DNA from: Pseudooctadecabacter jejudonensis
Lineage (GTDB): Bacteria > Pseudomonadota > Alphaproteobacteria > Rhodobacterales > Rhodobacteraceae
Direction: 5' to 3'
DNA length: 64,000 nt
NCBI RefSeq assembly: GCF_900172275.1
Contig: NZ_FWFT01000005.1
Span: forward strand, 1 to 64,000
Below are positions 43,803 through 57,049 of this stretch, in pieces (position 1 is the stretch's first letter; each line of letters opens with the position of its first letter). Made by a program: the position numbers and the translations under genes. Under the pieces are notes generated by a model. It was not told the origin of the DNA and did not search any database. It saw only the letters and a program-made list of their open reading frames with translations.

Positions 43803-44053
43803 CCTTTGCGGCCACGCTCGCCGCTTTGCCCATCGGCACGTTTCGCGCCCATGCCCACGGTAAAGACTGGATCGTCACCCGCAGCCTTGTCGCCGGCGGG
43901 CGCGGCGAAAAACTGGTGGGCGAGGCACTGGACGGGTCCGATTACATCAGCCTTAACCTCTATCATCTGGCCTCTGGCGATCTGTTGAACCCCTGCGAAA
44001 TGTCCACCGCCAAGGTGCGTGCCTTTGTGGCGGACCTAAAGGTCTTGGCCTGA
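43799..44053 (+). CDS. Unknown 84-residue protein
   Basis: A small protein coupled to plsY (ATGA). It reads GTFRAHAHGKDWIVTRSLVAGG...DYISLNLYHLASGDLLNPCEM; no family comes to mind and there is no signal or membrane segment. A related short gene after plsY is familiar to me from other Rhodobacteraceae, so it is probably real. It is the last gene of the pyrB-led unit. Confidence 0.7.
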   Translation: MTFAATLAALPIGTFRAHAHGKDWIVTRSLVAGGRGEKLVGEALDGSDYISLNLYHLASGDLLNPCEMSTAKVRAFVADLKVLA

Positions 44054-44067
44054 CGGGAGTATCTGTT

Positions 44068-44087
44068 GTTTCTGTCATAACAGAAAT
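44068..44087. promoter_or_regulatory. Operator-like palindrome upstream of the GbsR gene
   Basis: GTTTCTGTCATAACAGAAAT differs at two positions from the perfect palindrome at 44678. It ends 20 bases before the GbsR start, a natural place for autoregulation. Confidence 0.75.
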
Positions 44088-44107
44088 TCAAGAACGCGAG
44101 TCGCTCG

Positions 44108-44635
44108 ATGAACCTGACCCCTGCCATGCAAGACTTCATCCTCCACTGGGGGGAAATGGGGGCCAAGTGGGGTGTCAACCGGTCCGTGGCCCAGATCCAC
44201 GCGCTGCTGCATATCTCGCCCAAACCGATGACGGCGGATGAGATTTGCGAGACGTTGACCCTCGCGCGCTCCAACGTGTCGACCGCGCTCAAGGAATTGC
44301 AGGGTTGGAAACTGGTGCAGGCCAAACGCGAACTGGGCGACCGCCGCGCTCACTTCACATCTGTTCGCGATATGTTTGACTTGGTGAACGTCGTCATCGA
44401 AGGCCGCCGCGAACGTGAATTTTTGCCCACCTTGCTGGCGCTTCATAAAGTGCGGGAGGAGGCGCAAACCGACGGCACCGGCCCAGATGTCCGCGCCCGT
44501 ATCGAAGAAACGCTGACGACGATGCAAATGTTCGATGACTGGTACCGCGACGTGTCCAAACTGTCGCGCTCCGTCCAAATCGCTGTCTTGAAACTGGGTG
44601 GTCGCATCGCGCGGTTTTTGCCGAAGTCCGGCTGA
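44108..44635 (+). CDS. GbsR/MarR family transcriptional regulator
   Basis: A 175-residue winged-helix regulator. The HTH region reads QIHALLHISPKPMTADEICETLTLARSNVSTALKELQGW and the wing GDRRAHFTSV; the C-terminal helices resemble GbsR dimerisation helices. Members often repress transport genes, for instance for osmolytes. Matching palindromes lie before this gene and before the membrane gene at 44720, so it probably regulates itself and its neighbour. Confidence 0.9.
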   Translation: MNLTPAMQDFILHWGEMGAKWGVNRSVAQIHALLHISPKPMTADEICETLTLARSNVSTALKELQGWKLVQAKRELGDRRAHFTSVRDMFDLVNVVIEGRREREFLPTLLALHKVREEAQTDGTGPDVRARIEETLTTMQMFDDWYRDVSKLSRSVQIAVLKLGGRIARFLPKSG

Positions 44636-44677
44636 TCCGCCCCGCCCTAAGCACCGAGCAAAAAAATTTGGGAAACG

Positions 44678-44697
44678 ATTTCTGTCATGACAGAAAT
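44678..44697. promoter_or_regulatory. Perfect 20-bp operator palindrome
   Basis: ATTTCTGTCATGACAGAAAT is its own reverse complement over all 20 bases. It lies 42 bases after the GbsR stop and before the membrane-protein gene. An 18-base copy with two differences precedes the regulator gene, indicating a shared binding site. Confidence 0.82.
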
Positions 44698-44719
44698 GTT
44701 CGACATAAGGAAAAAAGTT

Positions 44720-45166
44720 TTGTGGCCAGATCGCCACCTCATGGCCCCCAAACACCCACGGGCCCCGCGTCCTCATCGATATATGGTTGATCCGACCGCG
44801 TTCTTTTTGGCGGTGATCGGCGCGCCCCTGTTGGTCACGTTGGCCACCTTTTGGCTCGTCGTGCCACCCTTTGCTCTGGTGATGGGCGGACCCGTTTATC
44901 TGATTTTCGCCATCCCTGTTTTGCTGTGGGATATACCGCGGCACGAACCAACCTTCGCGCGGTTGGCGTGGCTCGGCTTTGGCGCGGCGATGGTGGTTGC
45001 GGCCTTGATGGCCCTCTTCGGGCGCATCCTCCCCGCCTCGGGTCTGGATCAGGCCGCAGCCCTGTACGCTATCATGGGCGCCATCATCGGTCCTCTTTGG
45101 GGGGGCTTCGCTGCCCCCCTCTACCTCAAATTCCGGCGTGCGTCTTGCGCGCAGCCCATTGCCTGA
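44720..45166 (+). CDS. Membrane protein, probable GbsR target
   Basis: About 148 residues, three or four hydrophobic helices after a basic N-terminus (PKHPRAPRPHRYMVDP). Not recognised by family. The start is uncertain: TTG 44720 has AAGGA 8 bases upstream, ATG 44741 has none, and ATG 44687 would lie inside the operator. The C-terminal part MGAIIGPLWGGFAAPLYLKF closes the last helix. It lies downstream of a perfect GbsR-type palindrome, so it should be controlled by that regulator. Confidence 0.7.
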   Translation: MWPDRHLMAPKHPRAPRPHRYMVDPTAFFLAVIGAPLLVTLATFWLVVPPFALVMGGPVYLIFAIPVLLWDIPRHEPTFARLAWLGFGAAMVVAALMALFGRILPASGLDQAAALYAIMGAIIGPLWGGFAAPLYLKFRRASCAQPIA

Positions 45167-45188: not shown

Positions 45189-45578
45189 ATGCCCCTCGCA
45201 TCCTTTGCAATTGCCGCCTATGTCCTGCTGTCCCTCGCAGCCCTGTGTGCCCTCGGCTGGATGATCTTAAAGATCGGCACCCTCCTGGGCGACTGCCCCG
45301 CCGCACAGGCCCGCGCCAAAGCGGCCAGCGTGACCATCGCCACCGGTTATCTTGCAATCGGGGCGGGCGGTATCGTGATCGGCGGCGCAGTTGCGGTTTT
45401 CGTGGCGCCCGCCATCGCCCCCCTCTTTGCTGTCTTGGGATTTGTCATCCTGTGTCTGGGCCTGGGCTTCAGCAATGCCATATCAACCCTGCGCGCGGTC
45501 ATCGCACCGCCTCAGCAGGTCGGGCCCCAGGCCCCCAAAGCCGATCCGTTTGCTGACGCACCACCGCCAGCAGTCTAA
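45189..45578 (+). CDS. Small membrane protein, unknown
   Basis: A 129-residue protein with three hydrophobic segments and a Pro-rich C-terminal tail (PPQQVGPQAPKADPFADAPPP). AAAGGAG precedes the ATG with ideal spacing, so translation is well supported. It begins 22 bases after the preceding membrane gene and is likely in the same GbsR-controlled transcript. The function is unknown. Confidence 0.75.
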   Translation: MPLASFAIAAYVLLSLAALCALGWMILKIGTLLGDCPAAQARAKAASVTIATGYLAIGAGGIVIGGAVAVFVAPAIAPLFAVLGFVILCLGLGFSNAISTLRAVIAPPQQVGPQAPKADPFADAPPPAV

Positions 45579-49221: not shown

Positions 49222-50193
49222 ATGACCCAAGATCACGGGATGCCAGAGGCGACACCACAGGGTCACATCCCCGACAGGTTCAAAGACAGCTGGGTCAATA
49301 CATGGGCGCCAGAGGCCACCCGTCCCTTCCTGCGTCTGTCCCGCGCCGACGCCCCGATCGGCACATGGCTGCTGCTGCTGCCGTGCTGGTGGGGGCTGGC
49401 GCTGGGGATGCTGCACACGGGCACGGCCAGCTTGCACGACGCATGGATCGCGATTGGATGCGCTCTGGGAGCGTTTTTCATGCGTGGGGCAGGGTGCACA
49501 TGGAACGACATCACCGACCGGGACATCGACGCGGGCGTGGAACGCACCCGAAACCGCCCCATTCCCGCCGGTCAGGTGGGGGTGCGCGCGGCGCTGATCT
49601 GGATGGCGCTGCAATCGCTGATCTCGCTGTGCATTTTGCTCACGTTCCACCCGAACGCGGTGCTGCTGGGGGTGGCGTCCCTGATCCCCGTAGCCATCTA
49701 CCCTTTTGCCAAACGGTTCACGTGGTGGCCGCAGGTGTTTCTGGGCCTTGCGTTCAATTGGGGCGCGCTGCTGGCGTGGACGGCCCACACGGGCTCTCTC
49801 GGCTGGCCTGCGGTTGCACTCTATCTGTCCGGCATCGCATGGACGCTTTTCTATGACACCATCTATGCCCACCAAGACGCCGAAGATGACGCGCTGATCG
49901 GCGTGAAATCCACCGCGCGTCTGTTCGGGGACAAAACACCGACGGCCTTGCGCCTGTTTATGGTGGCCACTGTGGTTCTGATGGGCGTGGCCGTCGTGCT
50001 GGCGGGGCTGAACGCCAATGCATTGGCGTTGGTTGTGGCCCTCGGCGGGCCGTGGGCCATGGGTTGGCATCTGGCGTGGCAGCTGCGCACATTTGATGCC
50101 GACGATGGGCCGGGCCTCTTGCGGCTCTTCCGGTCGAACCGAAACGCGGGCCTGCTTCCTGTGCTGTTTTTCGCCATTGCCTTGTGGCTATGA
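49222..50193 (+). CDS. ubiA: 4-hydroxybenzoate polyprenyltransferase
   Basis: A 323-residue membrane enzyme that attaches the polyprenyl chain to 4-hydroxybenzoate in ubiquinone synthesis. Both Asp-rich loops are present: NDITDRDID (near residue 95) and YDTIYAHQDAEDD (near 210), within eight or nine helices. GAGGACCAT precedes ATG 49222. It uses the product of the synthase at 15156. Only ubiA of the later ubi genes is present here. Confidence 0.95.
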   Translation: MTQDHGMPEATPQGHIPDRFKDSWVNTWAPEATRPFLRLSRADAPIGTWLLLLPCWWGLALGMLHTGTASLHDAWIAIGCALGAFFMRGAGCTWNDITDRDIDAGVERTRNRPIPAGQVGVRAALIWMALQSLISLCILLTFHPNAVLLGVASLIPVAIYPFAKRFTWWPQVFLGLAFNWGALLAWTAHTGSLGWPAVALYLSGIAWTLFYDTIYAHQDAEDDALIGVKSTARLFGDKTPTALRLFMVATVVLMGVAVVLAGLNANALALVVALGGPWAMGWHLAWQLRTFDADDGPGLLRLFRSNRNAGLLPVLFFAIALWL

Positions 50194-56708: not shown

Positions 56709-57029
56709 ATGCGGTGGCTGTTTGCGGCGATGGCGGTGTGGGGCACGATCCACCCGATGTATTATTTTGTCAGCTGGTTTCAGGCCAACACCTGGGACAT
56801 CATGGCGATGGTCGATGCATGGCATGCCAATGATGCGGCCTCCGGTCTGGTCTGGGATCTGACGGTTGCTGCTGTCGCCCTGACTGTTTGGGTCATCTAT
56901 GAAGCGGTCCAAACCCGCCAATGGGTCCGGCTTGTCGCGATCCCTGCAACCTTTTGCATTGGTGTCAGCTGCGGGTTGCCACTGTACATCTTTATCCGGA
57001 TGTCCAAGGCGCGTGCCGCAGGCGGGTAA
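56709..57029 (+). CDS. DUF2834 membrane protein
   Basis: A 106-residue protein with three hydrophobic segments; VWGTIHPMYYFVSWF near the start and TWDIMAMVDAW match the DUF2834 pattern as I know it. It starts right after the lipoprotein stop. No function has been assigned. The downstream gap holds a 22-base palindrome and the long-form gene-end repeat. Confidence 0.8.
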   Translation: MRWLFAAMAVWGTIHPMYYFVSWFQANTWDIMAMVDAWHANDAASGLVWDLTVAAVALTVWVIYEAVQTRQWVRLVAIPATFCIGVSCGLPLYIFIRMSKARAAGG

Positions 57030-57049
57030 CAAAATTCCGGAATTTTGTT
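57028..57049. terminator. 22-base perfect palindrome after DUF2834
   Basis: The half-site AACAAAATTCC and its mirror GGAATTTTGTT form an 11-bp perfect inverted repeat overlapping the DUF2834 stop codon. The 3' arm ends TTTTGTT, so it could act as a terminator on either strand; it is immediately followed by the repeat at 57051. Confidence 0.6.

Follow-up and report, generated by a model that had tools for sequence, protein, structure and literature searches.

The gbsR gene (44108..44635, + strand) and the two membrane-protein genes behind it, M1 and M2, appear to form an autorepressed operon in which the GbsR product reads two palindromes. One would be an operator that occludes the gbsR promoter and the other an internal operator that acts as a roadblock. 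We give this reading a probability of about 0.8; binding, repression, roadblock, cooperativity and a ligand are parts of it that we infer from sequence. In the proposed mechanism a GbsR dimer would read TTTCWG-N6-CWGAAA. Bound at operator 1 it would cover the predicted -10 and +1 and block RNA polymerase, and occupancy of this site would repress the whole gbsR-M1-M2 operon, gbsR included. Bound at operator 2, within the operon, GbsR would form a roadblock that adds to the repression of the membrane genes, a step suggested by the position of the operator. Further half-sites, spaced in 9-bp steps about the two operators, suggest that binding is cooperative or extended, and the signal that releases GbsR may be membrane or respiratory stress. 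In relatives GbsR would control, among others, the genes of a fatty-acid desaturase and a DCC1-like protein and, once, a gene located remotely.

The sequence ATTTCTGTCATGACAGAAAT, found at positions 44678–44697 of the window (the whole 64-kb stretch of DNA analysed), is a perfect 20-bp palindrome. Positions 44068–44087 read GTTTCTGTCATAACAGAAAT and are identical to it at 18 of 20 positions, so the pair described by an earlier sequence-only reading is present, one perfect and one 18/20. That reading gave TCTGTCA as the half-site. A symmetric half-site, (A)TTTCTGTCA, does occur, but the conserved part is TTTCWG. For perfect palindromes of at least 20 bp, 0.09 are expected in the window and three are present; only that at 44678–44697 has a near-identical second copy. 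The other two are unrelated to the gbsR-flanking pair: AACAAAATTCCGGAATTTTGTT, a 22-bp palindrome at 57028–57049 between a short membrane ORF and a lysA-like gene, is probably a terminator, and AACGCCAATGCATTGGCGTT, 20 bp at 50011–50030 within a ubiA-like coding sequence, is probably a chance occurrence.

A search of the 3.41-Mb genome for TTTCTGTCATNACAGAAA at 0–1 mismatches gives only the two copies flanking gbsR, and at 3 mismatches a single match, which is at the control level. Exact TTTCWGTN4ACWGAAA again gives only these two sites in this genome, and at 2 mismatches its matches are not above control. A motif query centred wrongly with respect to the palindrome, TTTCTGTCATATGACAGAAA, had no matches. 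A repeat or mobile element is ruled out since the genome has just two copies, and a large regulon in this genome is ruled out by the lack of any further site above chance.

The gbsR product is predicted to be a GbsR-type MarR-family winged-helix repressor of 175 aa, from profile and structure-database matches and from the tree. Pfam MarR_2 (PF12802) scores 39.8 bits against a cut-off of 27. The best NCBIfam match is CudC (NF047500; E-value = 2e-14, residues 19–157), with a score of 53.7 bits that falls below the equivalog cut-off of 218, and the best PDB match is 1ku9 (MJ0223; E-value = 1e-9, residues 13–117). A MarR winged-helix domain together with GbsR-like full-length similarity places the predicted product in the GbsR subfamily, and the regulator's identity as first read from the sequence is borne out by the CudC and MJ0223 matches. 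The gene order is pyrB, two short ORFs, pyrC, plsY, a short ORF, gbsR, M1 and M2, with gshA on the opposite strand, and this order around gbsR is widespread in Rhodobacterales. In the tree the window GbsR falls in an 80-row Rhodobacterales clade with support 100/99. The cyd-linked GbsR sequences form a separate clade (support 100/100), and the DUF4166-linked clade is also distinct from that of the window. Members of the CydE/CioR group directly precede cydAB or cioAB; here gbsR is followed by M1. Choline genes are absent near gbsR.

Operator 1 is the 18/20 copy (44068..44087) and, from sequence and conservation, lies over the predicted -10 and transcription start of gbsR. In an alignment of 73 loci, TTGAC is conserved 24 bp upstream of it (T 0.96, T 0.81, G 0.73, A 0.71, C 0.77), and the putative -35 of the window, TTGGCC (44045..44050, + strand), aligns with this element. 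A TGnTATTTC element runs into the left edge of the operator in the same alignment. Outside the operator and the promoter elements the information content of the locus alignments is that of background. These upstream elements read like a sigma-70 promoter, and the operator would cover its -10 and start point. The overlap with a conserved promoter thus fits autorepression by occlusion, and conservation argues that gbsR carries a palindromic operator at its own promoter. An outer half-site, TATCTG (44060..44065, + strand), is located 9 bp upstream of operator 1 and matches TTTCWG at 5 of 6 positions. Over the 73 loci, TTTCWG matches peak at -9 (mean 4.63/6, background about 2) and a weaker half-site mirrors this one downstream of the operator; the window's own outer half-sites are weak (3–5/6).

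Operator 2 is the perfect palindrome (44678..44697) and, from the sequence and the alignments, spans the start codon of M1 (44687..45166, + strand), a 4-TM membrane protein of 159 aa beginning MTEM. It had been described as preceding the membrane gene. It does lie beside M1, but it contains the likely M1 start codon, ATG at 44687–44689. In relatives operator 2 is found 23–76 nt past gbsR, where it covers the ribosome-binding region and start codon of the gene that follows. An SD-like GGAG stands immediately before it in the aligned loci, and ATGACAGAAAT in its right half is the beginning of the next gene. ATG is at the operator centre in 53 of 69 loci, with a frame of at least 120 codons in 50 of those 53. 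It is at the right edge (ACAGAA followed directly by ATG) in 8/69, where the SD is moved into the left half of the operator (TTTCGGAG, TTTCAGGAG), and 8/69 loci show neither register. By its position after the SD and over the start codon, operator 2 is expected to be transcribed and overlaps translation initiation.

An alignment of M1 sequences shows MTE, then a variable linker, then a conserved four-helix region. M1 would begin Met-Thr-Glu because operator 2 supplies those bases; the invariance of MTE comes partly from how the M1 set was chosen, the maintained frame does not. In 15 centre-register loci no ATG, GTG or TTG is found between the operator ATG and the conserved M1 body. Later possible M1 starts exist in the window, thus the M1 start is assigned from relatives. 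On the right-hand side of operator 2, additional half-sites are repeatedly present at +21 and +30. On balance we lean towards the view that in Rhodobacterales an intra-operon GbsR operator has merged with the site where translation of the following gene begins, in two registers (centre, and right edge with the SD in the left half-site). The main register would fix the Met-Thr-Glu of otherwise fast-changing targets (M1-type and one DCC1-like), and the operator code would constrain the target protein sequence and let cargo genes swap. The cydA-linked relatives are without operator 2, which is not general for the family.

No conserved -35 is found upstream of operator 2 in the alignment, unlike operator 1. 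The lack of a conserved promoter there and the short gap after gbsR suggest that gbsR, M1 and M2 share one operon and that the operator inside it is a roadblock. Two independent promoters, with operator 1 serving gbsR alone and operator 2 a separate M1-M2 promoter, are an unlikely arrangement: operator 2 is without the conserved -35 that is obvious at operator 1, and the gbsR-M1 gap is just 23–76 nt and carries the SD. There is also no sigma-70-like match upstream of M1 in 43900–44700, weak evidence since the consensus scan misses the predicted gbsR promoter as well. What speaks for a second promoter is AAAAATTTTG, an A/T element at constant distance upstream of operator 2 in either start-codon register, which could be part of a non-standard promoter. 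In the window this region holds a conserved A-tract/T-tract, AAAAAAATTTG (44660..44670, + strand), at positions -19 to -9 of operator 2, in which TTT is nearly invariant over 53 loci. The element is unexplained by the SD or a standard promoter, and it could belong to an unrecognised second promoter. Control of two membrane genes, as predicted from the sequence, is favoured by synteny and co-occurrence; the part that changes concerns the second operator, which is probably intra-operon and over a translation start, not the operator of a separate promoter.

A main mechanism in which GbsR oligomers loop the DNA between the two operators is less likely still. The operators are about 600 bp apart and the extra half-sites could support oligomers, but the spacing is 570–639 bp among loci with no obvious helical phasing (by inspection only). 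Action at the RNA level, with a hairpin of operator 2 hiding the M1 start codon, is very improbable. The window sequence can form a 7–8-bp stem with the AUG in or beside the loop. However, all 7 pairs are kept in only 12/69 operator 2 sites versus 47/73 at operator 1, where there is no start codon; position 5 of operator 2 is usually C, which breaks a pair, and the folding energies are not better than those of shuffles. Hairpin control at operator 2 was therefore rejected, as the stem is not conserved.

The operon reading, with GbsR at both palindromes, draws on a motif that accompanies GbsR genes among relatives. Eighty relatives were fetched and loci from whole-genome searches were added. 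A site was scored where 11 or more of the 12 positions agreed with TTTCWG-N6-CWGAAA in the 120 bp upstream of gbsR. Such a site is found in 112/114 gbsR genes from several phyla, a set whose members share kinship and are not mutually independent. The reversed-motif control reaches 11 matches in 0/114 upstream regions, and shuffles in 0.04%. Genes with an upstream site include those of Neisseriaceae, Planctomycetota and Verrucomicrobiota, and the single Omnitrophota locus shows 10/12 matches. In 249 family genomes, 21 of 30 exact TTTCWGTN4ACWGAAA sites adjoin a GbsR gene (assigned by coordinate comparison) and the other 9 are not above the 13 of the reversed-motif control. In these genomes the motif is no more frequent than chance where no GbsR gene is nearby, and the many GbsR-unrelated copies that the sequence-only reading had named as grounds for abandoning its proposal do not appear. 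Motif and regulator co-occur in 18 of 23 motif-bearing genomes (Fisher 4e-12) and M2 is confined to genomes with the window's GbsR clade (10/10, 2e-12); these counts include related genomes and the p-values are indicative.

The motif accompanies GbsR in unrelated neighbourhoods (cyd, DUF4166, DUF2269/SDR and M1/desaturase), and both palindromes are retained beside gbsR in nearly all close relatives. Together with the match to the CydE footprint, this strongly supports the proposal that they are GbsR operators, and the two palindromes are very probably binding sites of the adjoining gene's product. That a different DNA-binding protein uses the palindromes with gbsR as a bystander is hardly tenable: the assignment to GbsR is by sequence comparison, but the motif tracks GbsR genes in differing neighbourhoods and phyla, is no commoner than chance elsewhere and agrees with the footprint of a GbsR-type protein.

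M1 has no Pfam family and no PDB fold match. M2 (45189..45578, + strand) is a 3-helix membrane protein of 129 aa with an invariant IG...G.CP motif and no Pfam or NCBIfam family. Neither the four-helix nor the three-helix model had a significant match in the PDB that would point to function by fold. Homologues of M1 and/or M2 dominate near gbsR in 70 Rhodobacterales loci. In 24 of the 70 a membrane fatty-acid desaturase (PF00487) is encoded near gbsR, and in several of them its gene comes immediately after operator 2. In L085 the ATG within the operator begins the gene of a DCC1-like thiol-disulfide oxidoreductase. In other clades GbsR precedes cydA, DUF4166 with SDR/DoxX-like genes, or SDR/DUF2269 genes.

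Genome G019 has an exact site on a different contig from gbsR, 43 bp before a gene whose homologue is directly behind operator 2 in locus L019 (44% identity, E-value = 6e-57). This unlinked site would be a remote target and supports operator function. A family of about 265 aa without a clear Pfam family (L174, 1659–2496; L019, 4777–5574) is encoded within gbsR cassettes and also by a remote gene that has a GbsR-type operator to itself. In G255 and G263 the exact sites distant from gbsR are inside reading frames and look like chance. A contig with M1/M2 in G288 was considered as evidence of trans-regulation and rejected as not clean, both contigs ending near the genes. In G116 an exact palindrome, TTTCTGTAATTACAGAAA (L175, 1450–1467), is located some 140 bp ahead of the gene for a DegP-like protease and may be a target or a chance match. 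L081 carries a third operator copy, TTTCAGTCATGACAGAAA, at about +1567 from the gbsR start and before an M1-like gene (MTETSEP...); thus operator and M1 may duplicate as a unit. Among 19 sampled genomes of the window genus M2 is found only in the window's genome, and G003 and G004 carry a DUF4166-type GbsR instead. The cassette thus appears patchy.

GbsR-type regulators are widespread and poorly characterised, and in a survey 73 of 179 such genes had uninformative neighbourhoods (PMC6207618). A single 18-bp code matches the CydE footprint, is present at a CioR-type promoter and stands beside relatives in several phyla, so that targets can be predicted from sequence; one unlinked target, that of G019, has already come to light in this way. 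In the fusion of operator and start codon the same bases are under both a DNA-binding and a coding constraint, in a form that can be put to the test, and the locus connects membrane proteins and a fatty-acid desaturase with a regulator that had been an orphan. The regulator belongs to a known family and would use an operator of the family type. What is new, as far as our searches show, is the motif common to orphan GbsR clades and those of CydE/CioR type, the association with M1, M2 and the desaturase, and the two-register fusion of operator and start codon. A literature search on these DUF neighbourhoods found nothing, and by title and abstract none of the papers naming GbsR and Roseobacter appears to address the window locus.

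CudC (NF047500) is similar to the window GbsR over most of its length, but the match is below cut-off and choline genes are not nearby. GbsR of B. subtilis (gbsAB, opuB), the namesake of the family, is likewise a MarR-type dimer, and it forms roadblocks at operators located past the transcription start (PMC7396694), a precedent for the role proposed for operator 2. It differs in an A/T-rich operator of other sequence, a choline ligand and osmoprotectant targets, none of which are found near the window locus. CioR of Chromobacterium violaceum binds its own promoter in EMSA (PMC11837568) and is, like the predicted window GbsR, a GbsR-type autorepressor of a membrane-protein operon. Unlike the window GbsR it controls cioAB, and the motif is not reported in the portion of that paper's text searched (PMC11837568); the cioR-cioA promoter of a Chromobacterium relative carries the same motif, as TTTCAGGAATTTCTGAAA. 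CydE of Alishewanella sp. WH16-1, a GbsR-type cydAB repressor, gives a DNase footprint of TATTTCAGAAATTTCTGAAAGTTCA (PMC6096048). The core of this footprint, TTTCAGAAATTTCTGAAA, is identical to the site before the cydA-linked gbsR in L010, L144, L148 and L150. Its second published site, GGGATGCGCATATGCAAAT, is unrelated to the palindrome (PMC6096048). CydE controls cytochrome bd, unlike the window GbsR, and the cydA-linked relatives, in a separate clade, have no downstream operator, in contrast to the window locus. In its basic arrangement the window gbsR is like CydE, which is the first gene of the operon it represses, with an operator, TTTCAGN6CTGAAA, upstream of its own gene (PMC6096048).
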